The position numbers and the translations under genes are program-made. DNA of 64,000 nt from Spongiibacter sp. IMCC21906 (GTDB lineage Bacteria > Pseudomonadota > Gammaproteobacteria > Pseudomonadales > Spongiibacteraceae), in NCBI RefSeq assembly GCF_001010805.1, contig NZ_CP011477.1, forward strand, positions 868,001 to 932,000, read 5' to 3'. A model generated the notes under the pieces. The model was given only the letters and a program-made list of their open reading frames with translations, searched no databases and was not told the origin of the DNA. Below, in pieces: positions 11,074 to 56,127 of the stretch; position 1 is the stretch's first letter, and every line of letters starts with the position of its first letter.

Positions 11074-12480
11074 TTACACGCTGTAGTACATATCAAACTC
11101 AACCGGGTGAGTTGTCATGTTCAGGCGCTCGATTTCTTGAGATTTCAGGTCGATGTAAGCATCGATCATGTCGTCGTCAAATACGCCGCCAGCTGTCAAG
11201 AAGGCGCGGTCAGCATCCAGTGCTTGCAGAGCCATGTCCAGGCTAGAGGCAACGGTTGGAATGTTAGCTGCTTCTTCTGCAGGCAGGTCGTAAAGATCTT
11301 TGTCGGCAGCATCGCCGGGGTGGATCTTGTTCTGGATGCCGTCCAGGCCGGCCATCAGCATACAGGCGAAGGCCAGGTATGGGTTAGCTGACGCATCTGG
11401 GAAGCGAACTTCTACGCGGCGAGCTTTAGGGTTGCTGATGAAAGGAATCCGAATAGAAGCGGAGCGGTTGCGAGCCGAGTAGGCCAGCATAACGGGTGCT
11501 TCAAAGCCGGGAACCAGGCGTTTGTACGAGTTGGTAGACGCGTTGGTAAATGCGTTGATTGCGCGAGCGTGCTTGATGATACCGCCAATGTAGAACAAGG
11601 CTGTTTCAGACAGGCCGCCGTAAACGTCACCGGTAAACAGGTTCTGACCGTCCTTGCTCAAAGACTGGTGAACGTGCATGCCGCTACCGTTGTCGCCAAC
11701 GACAGGCTTGGGCATGAAGGTCGCTGTTTTGCCGTAAGCGTGTGCAACGTTGTGTACGCAGTACTTAAGAATCTGTACTTCGTCCGCTTTTTTCACGCCC
11801 GTGTTGGGGCCAACACCGATTTCACACTGGCCCGCAGTACCCACTTCGTGGTGATGTACTTCAATGTCCAGTCCCATGTCGGTCATGGCGTTACACATGG
11901 CGGCACGCAGATCGTGCAGGCTGTCTACTGGCGGAACGGGGAAGTAACCGCCTTTAACGCCGGGGCGGTGACCGATGTTGCCTTCTTCAAAGTTGTCGCC
12001 TGATTTCCACGCAGCTTCGTCAGAAGCAATAGCGTAGCTGGCGCCTTCCATGCCGATTTTCCATTTTACATCGTCAAATACGAAGAATTCGGGCTCGGGT
12101 CCAAACAATACGTTGTCGGCAATGCCGGTAGAGCGCATGTAATCTTCAGCGCGCTGAGCAATGGAGCGAGGGTCGCGGTTGTAGCCCTGCATGGTGGTGG
12201 GCTCAACGATACCGCAACGGATAATAATGGTGACTTCTTCGGTGAAGGGGTCGAGTACCGAGGCTTCGTCGTCTGGCATCAAAATCATGTCTGATTCGTT
12301 AATGCCTTTCCAGCCAGCGATAGACGAGCCGTCAAACATTTTGCCATCTTCAAAGAAGCCTTCGTCAATTTCGCCAACAGGCATGGTGACGTGCTGTTCT
12401 TTACCCTTGGTGTCGGTGAAGCGCAGGTCAGCCCATTTAACATCATTATCGGCGATTAGCTTCAGAGTTTTCTCTGACAT
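11074..12480 (-). CDS. glnA: Glutamine synthetase type I (GSI-beta)
   Basis: 468 residues. Signatures: FDGSSIAGW, metal/glutamate site [14 protein letters not shown] region [16 protein letters not shown], and the adenylylation tyrosine Tyr397 in [10 protein letters not shown], all typical of the enterobacterial GSI-beta dodecamer regulated by GlnE. It makes glutamine from glutamate, ammonia and ATP. A strong SD (GGAGGA) precedes the start. A sigma-54 promoter and NtrC-like half-sites lie upstream, and ntrBC lies just downstream. Confidence 0.97.
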
Positions 12481-12591: not shown

Positions 12592-12607
12592 AGCAAAATG
12601 CGTGCCA
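12592..12607 (-). promoter_or_regulatory. Sigma-54 promoter of glnA
   Basis: The minus strand reads TGGCACGCATTTTGCT, an exact match to the -24/-12 consensus TGGCACG-N4-TTGCW. It predicts transcription start near 12581 and a leader of about 100 nt to the glnA ATG. Confidence 0.9.
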
Positions 12608-49331: not shown

Positions 49332-49805
49332 TTAAGGTGATATGAGCCAGAGCTTGTCAGCTGACAGGTAGTCTACTGCTTGGCCAATATGGATGCCAGG
49401 TGCTTGAGCGTCAAGTTCGGCCAGTGGGGCGAGTACAAAGGGCCGCTCTGGGATTGCCGGGTGTGGCACGGTCAAGGTATGACTGTTTATACGGGCGTCG
49501 CCATAGAGGAGTAAATCCAGGTCTAAAGTGCGTGCGCCCCAGCGTATGGCTCGCTGGCGACCCTGTTGCTGTTCAATCCCCTGTAGTGCCGTCAGTAGTG
49601 CGTGGGGGTCGAGTGATGTTGATAATTTGGCTGCGGCGTTAACGTAGTCGTCCTGCGCGCCGGGGCCAATCGCTTTGGAGCCGTAAAATCGTGAAACCGC
49701 GTCGAGCCGGCAGCTGGGTAGCGCGGCAAGCGCGTCGATTGCCCTGAGTAATTGTTGTCTGGGCTGGCTAAGGTTGCTGCCCAGCCCTATAAAACACGGA
49801 ATCAT
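49332..49805 (-). CDS. folK: HPPK, 2-amino-4-hydroxy-6-hydroxymethyldihydropteridine diphosphokinase
   Basis: 157 residues from ATG 49805. The HPPK core has FIGLGSNLSQPRQQL, GPGAQDDYVNAA, and the signature RWGARTLDLDLLLYGD followed by LTVPHPAIPERPFVLAPL. It pyrophosphorylates 6-hydroxymethyl-dihydropterin for folate. The ATG overlaps the pcnB stop (ATGA). The longer open frame is antisense-like pcnB overlap and is rejected. Confidence 0.95.
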   Translation of the reverse strand: MIPCFIGLGSNLSQPRQQLLRAIDALAALPSCRLDAVSRFYGSKAIGPGAQDDYVNAAAKLSTSLDPHALLTALQGIEQQQGRQRAIRWGARTLDLDLLLYGDARINSHTLTVPHPAIPERPFVLAPLAELDAQAPGIHIGQAVDYLSADKLWLISP

Positions 49806-51193
49806 TCCGGGTTGCGGGCCGCATTGGGTGGTCTGCGACGGCGTCTGCGAGGACGTTTTCGCGGTTCTTGGCTGCTGCTGGTTTTGAGCATAGCGTCGCG
49901 TAATTCGGGACGGCTTTCCTGAAAAGCCAGCCACCATTGCCCGAGTTCGGGTTCAATCTCTTCGGCCTGTTCTCTTAGCAGAAGGAAATCAAAACCAGCG
50001 CGAAAGTAACGGTGCTCCAGTAGTTGTTCTGCGCGTTTGCCGTTGCGTTTGGTGAGCCGGAACTGCAGTTCCCAAATGTCGCGCATTGGCAGGGAAAACC
50101 GCTTGGGAATCGCCACAGTTTGTTGTTGCTTGTGCAGAACGCGCTCAGAGGCTTGATGCAGTGCAGGGATTTCGGGCACACCAGAAGCGGCGATTTCAGC
50201 TTGCAGTGATTTCACCAAGGGCCAAAGGATCACGGCGTAAATAAAAGCCGGGGTGACGGATTTGCCTTCGGCAATTCGCGCATCGGTGTTAATCAAGCCC
50301 TGTTGGATAATGGCTTCTGCCGCGGGGGTTTGCTTGTTTAACATGGTCTGGGTGGCAGGAAACAAGGGTTGAAATAAACCATAGCGCTGTAATAAGGCAT
50401 AGGTTTGCAGGCCATTCCCAGCCATAAATAATTTCAAGACTTCGTCAAATAATCTCGCGGGGGAGATGTCTCTGAGCAGCGGTGCCAGTCGTTGAATTGG
50501 TTCTTCGGTAGCGGCTTCAATATCAAAATTCAGTTTTGCCGCAAAACGTATAACCCGCATCATTCTTACTGGGTCTTCGCGGTAACGAGTTTCGGGGTCG
50601 CCAATAACCCGGATAAGTTTATCGTTCAGGTCTTGCAGGCCGCCCATATAATCGTACACACAAAAGTCTTTGCTGGTGTAGTACAGGGCGTTAATGGTGA
50701 GGTCTCTGCGCTCAGCGTCTTCAGTAACCGAACCATAGATATTGTCTCGCAGCAGCATTCCACTTTCGTTGCGAGCAGAATGTTGCTTGCTGACTGTTCC
50801 GCCGGTGTCGCTATGATTACCTCGGAAAGTGGTGACCTCTATCACTTCTCTGCCAAAACGCACATGGACAATCTTGAAGCGCCTGCCAATGATGCGGCTG
50901 TTGCGAAACAGGCCGCGCACTTGCTCGGGGGTGGCATCGGTGGCGACGTCGAAGTCTTTGGGTTGGCCGCCGAGCAAAATGTCTCTCACGCCGCCGCCAA
51001 CAAGGTAGGCGTCATAGCCAGACTGGTTCAGCCGGTGCATGACTTTTAGCGCGCTATCGCTAATAAGTCGACGGGATATGTTGTGATGATCCCTGGGGAT
51101 TATCACGGGCTCCCTTGCGGCAGTGCGCCTATTGGATTTGGGGAGTTTCTTGGTGAGCTTTTTCCACAGCCCGGCAACGGAGCTAGATGTCAT
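49802..51193 (-). CDS. pcnB: Poly(A) polymerase I
   Basis: 463 residues. Nucleotidyltransferase core GYDAYLVGGGVRDILLGGQPKDFDVATDA with the catalytic DxD, then RRFKIVHVRFG and RDLTINALYY. The C-terminus is a strongly basic tail (KRPRRRRRRPP). It polyadenylates RNA 3' ends and promotes decay. It follows cbrB and the CrcZ-like region, as in Pseudomonas, and is coupled to folK by ATGA. Confidence 0.95.
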   Translation of the reverse strand: MTSSSVAGLWKKLTKKLPKSNRRTAAREPVIIPRDHHNISRRLISDSALKVMHRLNQSGYDAYLVGGGVRDILLGGQPKDFDVATDATPEQVRGLFRNSRIIGRRFKIVHVRFGREVIEVTTFRGNHSDTGGTVSKQHSARNESGMLLRDNIYGSVTEDAERRDLTINALYYTSKDFCVYDYMGGLQDLNDKLIRVIGDPETRYREDPVRMMRVIRFAAKLNFDIEAATEEPIQRLAPLLRDISPARLFDEVLKLFMAGNGLQTYALLQRYGLFQPLFPATQTMLNKQTPAAEAIIQQGLINTDARIAEGKSVTPAFIYAVILWPLVKSLQAEIAASGVPEIPALHQASERVLHKQQQTVAIPKRFSLPMRDIWELQFRLTKRNGKRAEQLLEHRYFRAGFDFLLLREQAEEIEPELGQWWLAFQESRPELRDAMLKTSSSQEPRKRPRRRRRRPPNAARNPE

Positions 51194-51292
51194 CGTAAGA
51201 GTGCTTGGCCATTAACAGAAGGCAGGCATTCTATCATAGCAAGAGAAACTGTGTGGGGGCGGTAAGTGGACAAATTTTGATAGTCTAGAAAT

Positions 51293-51399
51293 GAAGAAGG
51301 GGAAAACATAGTCTTCCCCACCCAGGTCTTTTTATTGCTCTTTTATTGTTATTGTTCTCGTTTTCTTATTTTTATTAGTTAAGGTTTTATTCTTCTTTG
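51293..51399 (-). ncRNA. Predicted CrcZ/CrcY-like Hfq-Crc-titrating sRNA
   Basis: A predicted transcript of about 107 nt on the minus strand in the cbrB-pcnB gap, where Pseudomonas carries crcZ. It starts 12 nt after a sigma-54 promoter. It holds four AAN-triplet runs: AAGAAGAATAA, AATAAAAATAAGAA, AACAATAACAATAA and CAATAAAAAG. These match the AAnAAnAA motif bound by the Hfq distal face with Crc. It ends in a 9-bp hairpin (51311-51319 with 51299-51307, loop TAT) followed by TTCTTC. Pseudomonas CrcZ is about 400 nt, so this would be a compact form. There is no ORF. Ends are predicted, not measured. Confidence 0.72.
51299..51319 (-). terminator. Intrinsic terminator of the CrcZ-like RNA
   Basis: The minus strand reads GGGGAAGAC-TAT-GTTTTCCCC: nine pairs, one of them G-U, followed by TTCTTCATTTC. 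It lies about 105 bp upstream of pcnB. Confidence 0.68.
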
Positions 51400-51409
51400 A
51401 CAATACTAA

Positions 51410-51425
51410 AGCATGTGCTGTGCCA
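51410..51425 (-). promoter_or_regulatory. Sigma-54 promoter of the CrcZ-like RNA
   Basis: The minus strand reads TGGCACAGCACATGCT: -24 GG and -12 GC at the correct spacing, 14 of 16 consensus positions. Predicted start is near 51399. It sits inside a 14-bp inverted repeat (51402-51415 with 51424-51437). Confidence 0.78.
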
Positions 51426-51499
51426 TGTTTTAGTATTTGTTTAAAAACAATGACTTAGGAATATTTGGGTGGTTTTTGTTTTGCTTTTTTTTGCCTGCT

Positions 51500-51527
51500 T
51501 GTTACCGATGTAAACGGCTTTTGTTAC
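51500..51527 (-). promoter_or_regulatory. Candidate CbrB enhancer sites
   Basis: On the + strand TGTTAC (51500-51505), GTAAAC (51510-51515) and TGTTAC (51522-51527) lie 100-128 bp upstream of the predicted sRNA start, just past the cbrB stop. The CbrB target I recall in Pseudomonas is built from TGTTAC/GTAACA half-sites. The spacing differs from that palindrome. Confidence 0.5.
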
Positions 51528-51553
51528 ACAGGTCTTGAATGGGTAACGCTTGC

Positions 51554-53002
51554 TTAGCTACCTGAGCGGGTGCTGGCCTTTTTACGTGGGATGCCTAGTC
51601 GTTGCCGACGTTCCCACAGGCACTTTCTACTGACCCCCAGTTTTTGCGCGAGTTCGGTTTCGCTCATGGAGTCTTGATGTTCAAGTACAAAGTGTTGGAA
51701 ATAGTCTTCTAGTGACAGATCTTCGCTGGGGTCGGCGGTTCGTCCTGCGGAGGTCTTGTTTCGGCCGGTATCTTTTTTGTTGGCATCTCTGGTTTGGCGG
51801 GATGCGGGATCTGCTTGTCTACCGCGAATTTGGTTGATGTCGACCAGTTCTAGGTCGATGTCGAGTAACTCGTTGTCGATTTCGTCGCCGTCACAGAGAA
51901 TAACCGCACGCTCTACGGCATTCTCTAACTCGCGAATATTTCCCGGCCATACATAGGTTGTAATCGCCTGGATAGTTTTGGGGCTGAAGTGCATGGCCGG
52001 TTTGCCCATGGCTTCACAACGACTGCGTAACATGGTTTCAGCAATTTCTAAAATATCCTTACCGCGCTCTCTCAGGGGCGGCAGCTCTAATTTCATGACA
52101 TTAATACGGTAATAAAGGTCTTCTCTAAAGTGGCCAGCGTGAGCCATTTCTTTCAGGTTGCGGTGAGTGGCGCAAATCAGTCGCACATTAACCTTGCTGG
52201 ATTCGACTGCACCGATGCGGCGAATCTCGTCTTCTTGGATGAAACGCAGTAATCGGGCTTGGGCCTCAAGGGGAAGCTCGCCAATTTCATCCAGAAACAA
52301 GGTGCCGCCGTCGGCGGCTTCTATTAAGCCGATTCGATTGCTGTTGGCGCCGGTAAAGGCGCCTTTCTCATAACCGAACAGCTCTGATTCGATAAGGGTT
52401 TCTGGAATGGCAGCGCAATTGACGCAAACGATGGCTTTGCCTGCTCGGTCGCTTTGGGCATGAATAGCCCGGGCGACTAATTCTTTGCCCGTTCCTGTTT
52501 CACCATGAATCAGAACGGTGGCGTTAGTTGGGGCGACACGTTCAATGCGCTCATACACCTGGCGTATGGCTTGGCAGTTGCCGATCATGCCATTGGCATT
52601 GGCGACTGCTTTCCCCTGTCGGTTTGTTCCGGTTTTATGGGGAGGATTGTTCTCGCTATTGGTTTGAATAATGCGGGCGACGGTTTCTAGCATTTCATCG
52701 TGGTCGAAAGGCTTGGCGATATAGTCGATGGCACCCATCTTCATGGTATCAACGGCGGACTTCAGGCTGGCGTAGCTGGTCATTATCAACACCGGCGACT
52801 CGGTTTTGTTGATAATGTCAGTGCCGTTGGCGCCGGGCAGTCTTAAGTCGCTGATAATTAAATCGTAATTGTTGACTTGCTGGGAGGCGAGGGCTTCTTT
52901 GACGGAGGTGGCTACATCGACTGCGTAGCCGTTGTGCTCCAATAACCGTCGCAATGCCAAGCGGATGACATCTTCATCTTCGACGATCATTATTCGTGCC
53001 AT
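51554..53002 (-). CDS. cbrB: Sigma-54-dependent response regulator CbrB
   Basis: 482 residues (Pseudomonas CbrB 478). Receiver with Asp52 in SDLRLPG, AAA+ domain with GETGTGKE, GAFTGA contact loop and GNIRELENAVERA. A Q/T/K/S-rich linker leads to a Fis-type HTH (ETELAQKLGVSRKCLWERRQRLG). It activates sigma-54 promoters for carbon and nitrogen source use and, in Pseudomonas, the crcZ sRNA. GGGAGA precedes the ATG. Neighbours cbrA upstream and pcnB downstream settle the assignment. Confidence 0.92.
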   Translation of the reverse strand: MARIMIVEDEDVIRLALRRLLEHNGYAVDVATSVKEALASQQVNNYDLIISDLRLPGANGTDIINKTESPVLIMTSYASLKSAVDTMKMGAIDYIAKPFDHDEMLETVARIIQTNSENNPPHKTGTNRQGKAVANANGMIGNCQAIRQVYERIERVAPTNATVLIHGETGTGKELVARAIHAQSDRAGKAIVCVNCAAIPETLIESELFGYEKGAFTGANSNRIGLIEAADGGTLFLDEIGELPLEAQARLLRFIQEDEIRRIGAVESSKVNVRLICATHRNLKEMAHAGHFREDLYYRINVMKLELPPLRERGKDILEIAETMLRSRCEAMGKPAMHFSPKTIQAITTYVWPGNIRELENAVERAVILCDGDEIDNELLDIDLELVDINQIRGRQADPASRQTRDANKKDTGRNKTSAGRTADPSEDLSLEDYFQHFVLEHQDSMSETELAQKLGVSRKCLWERRQRLGIPRKKASTRSGS

Positions 53003-53175: not shown

Positions 53176-56127
53176 TCATTGCTGGGGCTCGATAATAGGC
53201 AGGTAAATATGCAGCCGTGTTCCTACGCCCCTTTCGGTGACAGGACTCTCAATGCTGATTTCGCCGCGTAGGTCGCGGATGATGCTATAGACTAAGGCGA
53301 GACCGAGGCCCGTGCCTTTGCCCGGTTCTTTGGTGGTAAAGAAGGGCTCGAAAATTTGGTCTTTTAACGTACTGTCTATACCGTGGCCTTGGTCGGTAAC
53401 GGTGATATGGGCGCGCTCTTGGTCGGCATTGGCACAAATGGTGATTGTGCCATCAAGCGGGCTGGCATCTCTGGCATTAGATAAAATGTTGATAAACACT
53501 TGTAGTAACCGTTGAGTGTCGCCGGTGACCCAAATACTGTCGTCACAATCATTGTTGAAATGTACTTTATGGGCGGTACTGTCAAGGTTGAGCAGTTGCA
53601 ACGCTTCATCTACAGAGGCGCGTATATGTACAGGTTCTATTGCCTGGGTCGGGTCTTCCCTTCCTGTGTGGGCAAAGTTCACTAAGCTGCGGACAATAGT
53701 GGTAATACGCTGGGTTTGCTTAATAATTTGAGATGCGGTTTCTAGACTCTCGGGGTTATCGGTGTCGTAACGCAGGTTTTGGGCGAGTGAGGCGATGCCG
53801 GTGACTGGGTTGCCAATTTCGTGGGCAACCCCTGCAGCTAAACGACCAATCGAGGCAAGACGCTCCTGGTGGGTTAGCTCATTTTCGAGTAGCTGGTTTT
53901 CGGTGACATCCTCGACAACCACGATAAGTTCATCCCGGCCCATTATCCCTGACTCAGTTTTGTGCAGGTTTAGCCAGCGTAGCCCGCGGTCAGTGTCGAT
54001 GCTGCGTTTACTCCAATGCAGATCTTCGCTGATAAAGAAGTCTTGCAGCAAACCCGCCCAAGCACTGGGAAGGCCGCTTAGATGGGAGCCGGTAATATCG
54101 CTTCCCGTGATGCGGGTGGTGTCTGACATAGACATATTCCACAGCAAAATTTCTTGGTCTTGCCCCAGAGCGCAGACCCCAATGGGCAGGTTCTCTAATG
54201 TTTCGCGGTGGTAGCGTCTGAGGCTGTCTAAGTCGGCAGCCAGGCCGGTTAGGTGGCTTTGGTAATGCTCTAGACGCTCCTCGATAAAGTTAATGTCTTC
54301 GCTTTCGCCCATAATGTTTTCGGTATAGGGCAGCGTGCGGTCAATGACGCGGCGGGCACTGGAGGGGCCGATTAATGATGACAGGTTAACTTCGATACGG
54401 TCTCTAATACGGCGCAGTGCATAGGGTCGAGTCTCAGACTCTTTGAGTTTGAGCTCTTCCAGTGCGCGGTGGAATTCTTGGTTGGCGGCACTTTCCCCCA
54501 GCACTTGCTGTAAGCGCAGTTTCATTTGTCGGGCATCTTGCAGGTTGAGTGCCGCGCGGCTGGGCCGGTTTAGATCGTCTAATGTACAAGCTTCGGCGGC
54601 GCTGCGTTCTTCTGCTGGAGTATCGCTAATCAATGAGACCAGTACAAACACAGCAGCGTTAAGCGTTAATGAGGTGGCGGCAACAGTAATCCAATGCTGT
54701 TCGGCTGCAAGAGAGAAAATATTGAGGGGGCCAGAGAAAATGCTCTCGATGCCAGCCAGCATGGGTAGCAATAGACCGATAAACCAGACCACAAAACCGG
54801 TACTTAAACCACTGATAAAGCCGGTTCGGTTGGCGGAGGGCCAGTATAAGACGGCAACAACTGCGGGCAGGAACTGAGCGCCACCAGTAAGGGAGATCAT
54901 TAGCAAGTCGGTGAGGGTCTCTTGCTCGGGGACCATCTCATAAAATAAAAACGCGACTAAAATAATCGCGCAGATAAGCAGTTGCCGCGTCCAGAGCAGC
55001 CAGCGGTAAATATTCACTTCTTGGCCCGGTGGACGATAAACCGGCAGCACTAAATGATTGAGGCACATAGAGGCCAGCGCCAGCGTCGCAACAATAATGA
55101 CGCCACTGGCTGCCGACATGCCGCCAATGTAGGCGGCAATGACTAGAAAAGGGTTATCTATATGCAGCGGAACGCCCAGCGTGAAATAGTCGCTGGGCAT
55201 GGTTAGCCCCACCGCTTGGCCCGCCCATAAAATAGGTAATATTGGCAGGCTGATTAAAAGCAGGTAGAGCGGCATGCCCCAGCTGGCAGTGTGTAAATTG
55301 TCGCTTTCGGGGTTTTCGGTAAACAGCATGTGGAATAAGTGCGGCATACATACGGCGGCGGCAAAGAACATGACCAGCATTAGGCGGTGCGCGTCTGCCT
55401 GGGTATTGGTGGTGAGGGCTTGCAGCACCTCGGGCCGGCTTGTCAGCCATGCCTGCATTTCATCGAGGCCGCCAAAAATAGACCATACGGCGGCGGCACC
55501 GATGAGTAGCATTGCAATGAGTTTGACGGCCGACTCAAAGGCAAGCCCCACGACTAATCCTCTGTGGCTATCTTTATAGGTAAGGCTGCGAGAACCGAAC
55601 AAGATGGTAAACAGCGTAATGATTATGCAAAAACCAAAAGCGCTGAGTTCCTTGAAGTGAAAGCCTTTAAATGCAAGATGCCCGCTACTGCTCAGCATGC
55701 TTGTGGAGTCGGCAAACGTGCGAATTTGTATGGCCAGTAATGGCCAGATTGATGCCGCTAAAAATAAAGTGGCAAGCGACCCGACAAGCTGGCTGCGAAA
55801 ACGGAAACTGAGCAGGTCTGCCAGCGAGTTGAGGCGATAGGTTTTGCAAATTCGGTGAAGCGGGGTGAGCAAAATAGGCAGTAGCACCATCGCCGCTGAG
55901 ATGCCTAAGTAATAGTTCAGAAAGGCATAGCCATAGTGTTGTGCAAAGCCCACGGCGCCGTAGACAGCAAAGCTGCTGGCGTATACGCCTAGAGACAAAA
56001 CGTAAATTAAAGGGTGGCGAATTAAGCGGTCTGGTAATAGCTGTCTTTCTGCTGCGTAGGCAATGGCAAACAGCAACATAAGGTAGCCGATGCCAATAAG
56101 AAAGAGTCCATCTATGTCAAAGTTCAT
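53176..56127 (-). CDS. cbrA: Sensor histidine kinase CbrA with SSS transporter domain
   Basis: 983 residues, the same length as P. aeruginosa CbrA. The N-terminal ~490 residues hold about 13 membrane helices of a sodium/solute symporter. A linker (STAC-like), a PAS domain (about 640-745), HisKA with His769 in [10 protein letters not shown] and HATPase boxes [15 protein letters not shown] and [10 protein letters not shown] follow. It phosphorylates CbrB; histidine uptake by the SSS part is known in Pseudomonas. Its ATG overlaps the cbrX stop. The 173-bp gap to cbrB may hold a separate cbrB promoter. Confidence 0.93.

Follow-up and report, generated by a model that had tools for sequence, protein, structure and literature searches.

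A predicted compact CrcZ-like small RNA gene between cbrB and pcnB in Spongiibacter sp. IMCC21906 and its relatives

The gap between cbrB and pcnB in Spongiibacter sp. IMCC21906 very probably carries a compact crcZ-like gene, a CrcZ reduced to ~110 nt, whose CbrAB- and sigma-54-driven RNA would act as a decoy titrating Hfq, together with Crc. The gap lies in a 64,000-nt stretch of the genome (the window), for which a preliminary description had proposed a minimal CrcZ-like decoy and CbrAB-controlled catabolite repression outside Pseudomonas. This proposal is supported by features present in the sequence itself: the anatomy and conservation of the promoter, with a three-site CbrB signature, the conserved pattern of AAN triplets, a terminator, and the presence of rpoN, hfq and a gene for a degenerate Crc.

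In the window, cbrA, cbrB and pcnB follow one another in this order, all on the minus strand. A gap of 360 bp separates the stop of cbrB (51554) from the start of pcnB (51193), and the small RNA gene was placed in this gap, on the strand of cbrB (Table 1). The promoter, AAN runs and hairpin that the preliminary description had located there were confirmed by sequence, and the observation was strengthened by comparison with other genomes. The interval it had delimited, 51293-51425, encloses the RNA and its promoter; the CbrB and IHF-like sites upstream (51547-51445) fall outside it.

Table 1. Features of the cbrA-cbrB-pcnB locus, in window coordinates.
Feature	Position	Strand	Basis or remark
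cbrA	53176..56127	-	983-aa histidine kinase, hydrophobic N-terminal half; 49% identity to Atopomonas gene
cbrB	51554..53002	-	response regulator with sigma-54 activation domain; 60% identity to syntenic Atopomonas gene
CbrB subsite F1, core GTTAC (6-mer cGTTAC)	51543..51547	-	122 bp upstream of -24 element; position conserved in relatives
CbrB subsite R1, GTAACA	51522..51527	-	match to published pattern
CbrB subsite R2, GTAACA	51500..51505	-	match to published pattern
IHF-like site TAAGTCATTGTTT	51445..51457	-	one mismatch to YAANNNNTTGATW
Sigma-54 (-24/-12) promoter TGGCACAGCACATGCT	51410..51425	-	pattern match; in gap of 70/75 cbrB-pcnB loci; rpoN in genome
Predicted small RNA, ~110 nt	51288..51399	-	start set by promoter geometry, 3' end by terminator
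AAN run 1 AAGAAGAAUAAAA	51385..51397	-	sequence
AAN run 2 AAUAAAAAUAAGAAAA	51361..51376	-	alignment: first two bases nearly invariant A, third base variable
AAN run 3 AACAAUAACAAUAAAA	51341..51356	-	six consecutive ARN triplets with flank
AAN run 4 AAUAAAAAGA	51327..51336	-	sequence
Conserved block GACCUGGGUGGGG	51316..51328	-	partly single-stranded; directly before and into terminator stem
Intrinsic terminator hairpin, U-rich tail	51299..51319	-	conserved with variable loop
pcnB	49802..51193	-	poly(A) polymerase

The -24/-12 promoter claimed earlier was found at 51425-51410 and is kept in relatives; it consists of GG-N10-GC plus seven of the eight further consensus positions. From its geometry, transcription would be expected to start at ~51399. 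The strict sigma-54 pattern had two matches in the 64-kb window; the other one (12592-12607, minus strand) lies upstream of glnA (11074-12480), an ordinary sigma-54 gene, and fits NtrC control. In P. putida, CbrB binds TGTTAC-N12-14-GTAACA-N15-19-GTAACA (PMC8871633). The corresponding arrangement in the window is cGTTAC-N15-GTAACA-N16-GTAACA, at 51548-51500, with the TGGCAC-N7-GC promoter downstream; F1 has one mismatch, and the F1-R1 spacing of N15 exceeds the published N12-14 by one base. A whole-genome search returned a single match to the F1-R1-R2 triple, at the cbrB-pcnB gap. A near-perfect inverted repeat (AATACTAAAACATG...CATGCTTTAGTATT, 51395-51440) overlaps the promoter and gave a spurious mir-302 match; it was set aside because it is absent from the promoters of relatives.

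Conservation of the AAN runs and promoter in related species, on which the preliminary description made its reading depend, was found in all family relatives examined: in a first set, promoter, AAN runs and hairpin were kept in 20 out of 20 other Spongiibacteraceae loci. In searches with PcnB, the window fell among Spongiibacteraceae, such as Zhongshania and Spongiibacter. Overall, cbrB was found upstream of pcnB in 75 loci, from groups including Spongiibacteraceae, Halieaceae, Microbulbifer, Halomonas, Saccharospirillum, Thalassolituus and Atopomonas (Pseudomonadaceae). As certain genomes were in the set twice, promoter statistics were computed on 73 distinct sequences. F1 (near -122) and R2 (near -80) occurred together, within a few bases of these positions, in 61 of them, whereas random positions drawn from these loci gave 8 out of 15000. 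R1, as GTAAC near -102, was present in 41 out of 73 and missing from most Halomonas. IHF assists the activation of crcZ and crcY in P. putida (PMC6296734), and an IHF-like site within one mismatch was observed in 54 out of 77 promoters, nearly always at -32/-33. The Atopomonas promoter exhibited the same layout of CbrB, IHF and sigma-54 elements as the window, and its RNA is called as CrcZ by Rfam (123 bits). Across the order, the F1-R2-sigma-54 pattern was found in 181 of the 392 sampled genomes (69 out of 137 genera); the same promoter pattern read backwards, used as a control, gave only a few scattered matches. In the genome of locus L002 (G014), the CbrB-plus-sigma-54 promoter pattern matched at two places in the forward direction.

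The predicted RNAs downstream of these promoters differed in length, from 86-92 nt in Halieaceae and 106-112 nt in Spongiibacteraceae to about 250-350 nt in several other groups and about 460-570 nt in Halomonas, with end points taken from a simple terminator scan, part of them missing or uncertain. In the long forms, the AAN runs appeared, by eye, to lie between complementary stretches. A covariance model of the compact RNAs (model R1) found exactly one copy in the Spongiibacter genome (E 3e-14) and compact forms in 17 out of 87 sampled genera. With predicted CrcZ-like units, spanning about 86 to 570 nt, present throughout the order, the compact RNA is no local oddity.

Some loci carried more than one unit. 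Two compact RNAs in tandem were observed in the gap in three Halieaceae loci (L078, 4661-4755 and 4851-4948; L096, 4569-4684 and 4795-4902; L097, 4599-4696 and 4781-4896). No good -24/-12 promoter could be detected for the second member of these pairs, which may therefore be co-transcribed or use another promoter. In two other loci, L022 (promoters at 321 and 812 of the gap) and L024 (154 and 551), both members of a tandem pair had CbrB sites and a sigma-54 promoter of their own. Further matches to the compact model were observed on a separate contig in genomes G033 and G167, possibly corresponding to CrcY/CrcX-like paralogues.

The window RNA has a predicted length of 110 nt, close to the ~107 nt first estimated, and all four of the AAN-triplet runs described earlier are present. 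The A-rich body (76 nt) contained nine overlapping matches to AANAANAA; its dinucleotide shuffles gave 3.8, and p is 0.02 when the window sequence is taken by itself. An excess was also detected in each Spongiibacteraceae relative (p from 0.002 to about 0.03, dinucleotide shuffles). Counts were above shuffles in every group and in every predicted RNA except one, a stray promoter-like match (L059 at 793). The evidence given by the window sequence is modest, and it is the comparison with relatives that carries the AAN pattern. The 14-mer AAYAAYAAYAAYAA of run 3 has only two occurrences in the genome. A second AAY-run in the genome (L147) neither overlapped nor directly adjoined any listed reading frame of at least 90 aa.

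In the alignment of 28 compact RNAs, nearly all first and second triplet positions were invariant A, with a varying third base. The distal face of Hfq binds ARN triplets, and fixed A's with a varying third base are therefore the mark expected from such binding. When the window RNA was folded, it appeared almost unstructured before the terminator, and runs 2 to 4 were mostly unpaired; the UUCUUC tail can serve as a pairing partner for run 1 here, but not in all relatives. Together the four runs, which are largely unpaired, comprise ~20 AAN triplets and would leave room for roughly two Hfq hexamers with fully occupied distal faces and two part-filled ones.

A genome search for crc and hfq, proposed in the preliminary description, found hfq and a gene for a Crc homologue. 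Over a stretch of 78 residues, the Hfq protein hardly differs from P. aeruginosa Hfq. Three EEP-fold proteins were identified, one of which is an intact XthA (L032). A second one (L034), encoded between pyrE and rph, is a Crc homologue (best PDB match 4jg3, Crc, E 7e-59) that is catalytically degenerate, lacking the catalytic residues of XthA (E34 to N, Tyr109 to L, Asp151 to N, and the Asp of SDH to S). In another genome (that of locus L082), where cbrB is not beside pcnB, an XthA-like protein encoded near pyrE (L139) had all checked catalytic residues intact, an arrangement which perhaps corresponds to the ancestral state of crc.

A degenerate Crc accompanied the RNA promoter in 21 out of 23 genomes, versus 4 out of 18 promoter-less genomes that could be resolved (Fisher p = 1e-5, in a test that ignores relatedness). 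The promoter-less genomes with a degenerate Crc were one out of five in which cbrB still precedes pcnB and three out of 13 resolved ones in which cbrB is not beside pcnB; two cases were unresolved. The association bears on whether the RNA titrates Hfq for all its distal-face clients, with little or no part for Crc in this family. Hfq alone would explain the distal-face AAN runs, and two genomes with the RNA promoter (L064 and L110) encoded only an intact XthA and no recognisable Crc; however, the frequent co-occurrence of promoter and degenerate Crc makes us consider an Hfq-only decoy unlikely. Conversely, a Porticoccaceae genome (G085, locus L113) encoded a degenerate Crc between pyrE and rph and had no sigma-54 promoter in its 175-bp cbrB-pcnB gap, so that its decoy, if any, must lie elsewhere. 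Because of these two kinds of exception, the coupling between RNA and Crc is not absolute.

At its 3' end, the window RNA exhibits the terminal hairpin reported earlier, at 51319-51299, composed of GGGGAAGA-CTATG-TTTTCCCC and the tail TTCTTCATTT, which is only moderately U-rich. RNAalifold, applied to the compact alignment, returned only seven pairs, all in the terminator and with little covariation, and we therefore claim no structure beyond the hairpin. The block preceding the hairpin was found as GNCCUGG[AGU]UGGGG in all 28 compact RNAs, from several families, with A at the second position in 27. Such a block, as GACCUGG[A/G]UGGGG, might pair with target mRNAs, the AAN runs merely holding Hfq; it is almost unvaried across families, even though the hairpin stem takes in only part of it. 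It also adjoins the terminator stem and is partly inside it, and may instead be kept for folding or for stability of the 3' end; we judge a base-pairing RNA of this kind improbable, to the same degree as the Hfq-only decoy.

The terminator also bears on the possibility that the sigma-54 promoter serves pcnB, the A-rich stretch being only a leader or AT-rich promoter DNA. Although pcnB follows next on this strand, with its start 105 bp past the hairpin, the conserved terminator stands between promoter and gene, the distance between the two exceeds 1 kb in certain other families, and a sense-strand AAN pattern of fixed A's and varying third bases is not expected from plain AT richness, which leaves this explanation very improbable. 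A short Asn/Lys-rich reading frame, whose codons would be in-frame AAN triplets free to vary at the third position, can be dismissed almost entirely as an explanation of the AAN pattern, because the A-rich body contains no ATG and the runs change frame among species, being separated in the alignment by gaps whose lengths are not divisible by three.

The predicted decoy was compared with CrcZ of Pseudomonas (RF01675). Both occupy the cbrB-pcnB slot and have a sigma-54 promoter with CbrB subsites F1, R1 and R2 and an IHF-like site, with a spacing in the window as in Atopomonas. Both also carry several AANAANAA (CA) motifs and an intrinsic GGGGA...CCCC terminator, in genomes encoding Hfq and Crc. 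In contrast, the window RNA is about 110 nt long, versus 398 model positions (about 400 nt with internal stems) for CrcZ; its AAN runs are set in a body with hardly any structure, whereas those of CrcZ lie between stems; and it has the GACCUGGGUGGGG block, for which the Atopomonas RNA shows only a partial likeness (CUAUGGCAUGGGGAGC).

A gathering search of the window against Rfam gave no match, RF01675 included, and among 13 loci searched in this way only Atopomonas matched. A CrcZ search of the Spongiibacter genome gave no match, and neither did control genomes. The expectation that a search with CrcZ would miss the RNA held at the Rfam cut-off; in a targeted covariance search, the RNA was faintly seen (E 0.0015, 20.5 bits versus a cut-off of 95 bits). 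Since it falls below this cut-off and is far shorter than CrcZ, the predicted RNA is classed as a CrcZ-like variant and not as a member of RF01675. The 3' end of Atopomonas CrcZ resembles that of the Halieaceae RNAs (CUAUGGACCUGGAUGGGGAAG), and this likeness, together with synteny and the promoter, favours common descent of Atopomonas CrcZ and the compact RNAs.

CrcY and CrcX of P. putida, Azotobacter and P. syringae are likewise CbrB/sigma-54-driven decoys, and a pair of units is found in certain relatives of the window as well. However, CrcY and CrcX lie at loci other than the cbrB-pcnB gap, whereas the duplicates among these relatives are in tandem within it, and the window genome has one copy. 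In the available part of its account, sRNA99 of Acinetobacter baumannii is an Hfq-bound RNA with three possible AAN motifs and is likened by its authors to CrcZ (PMC12802169). That part does not mention CbrB, sigma-54 or Crc (PMC12802169).

From these features, we infer how the decoy would be transcribed, controlled by CbrB, bound by Hfq/Crc and able to release its targets. On a poor carbon source, or once a preferred one is exhausted, CbrB would occupy the three half-sites, IHF would bend the DNA, and sigma-54 RNA polymerase would be driven from the promoter at 51425-51410. The transcript of about 110 nt would end at the hairpin, and its AAN runs would draw Hfq, probably with the Crc homologue, off the A-rich leaders of catabolic mRNAs; this withdrawal would relieve catabolite repression. 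Among the ribosome-binding-site regions of 602 genes, drawn from about a quarter of the genome, AANAANAA was found in 22, versus 16.6 in shuffles. As this is no clear enrichment, no targets are named; an acyl-CoA ligase-like gene in L179 and a TonB-receptor-like gene in L184 are candidate leads only.

In a 2022 review, CbrAB was described as unique to Pseudomonadaceae, and the order cbrA-cbrB-crcZ as known only from Pseudomonas and Azotobacter (PMC8871633). Our literature search for reports beyond these two genera returned only sRNA99 of A. baumannii, and no paper joining CbrB, Crc and Marinobacter; subscription papers lay mostly outside this search, and an earlier report outside Pseudomonadaceae is possible. 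Our comparison places the same predicted circuit in marine and halophilic genera, including Zhongshania, Spongiibacter, Halomonas, Microbulbifer and Thalassolituus, as well as in Halieaceae and others. A more tentative proposal, which we rate as a minority possibility, is an order-wide family of CbrB/sigma-54-driven Hfq decoys with CrcZ at one end; in its shortest members (86-120 nt, with AAN triplets for roughly one to two hexamers), the GACCUGGNUGGGG block might provide a second, sequence-specific role, in target base-pairing or protein binding. The compact RNAs supply an alignment that is absent from Rfam. As natural minimal decoys, the short forms would allow the required number of Hfq hexamers, and any need for Crc, to be established. 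If these RNAs are expressed, CbrAB control of catabolite repression would have an early origin and a wide distribution in the order, with an RNA that is reducible to ~90-110 nt.
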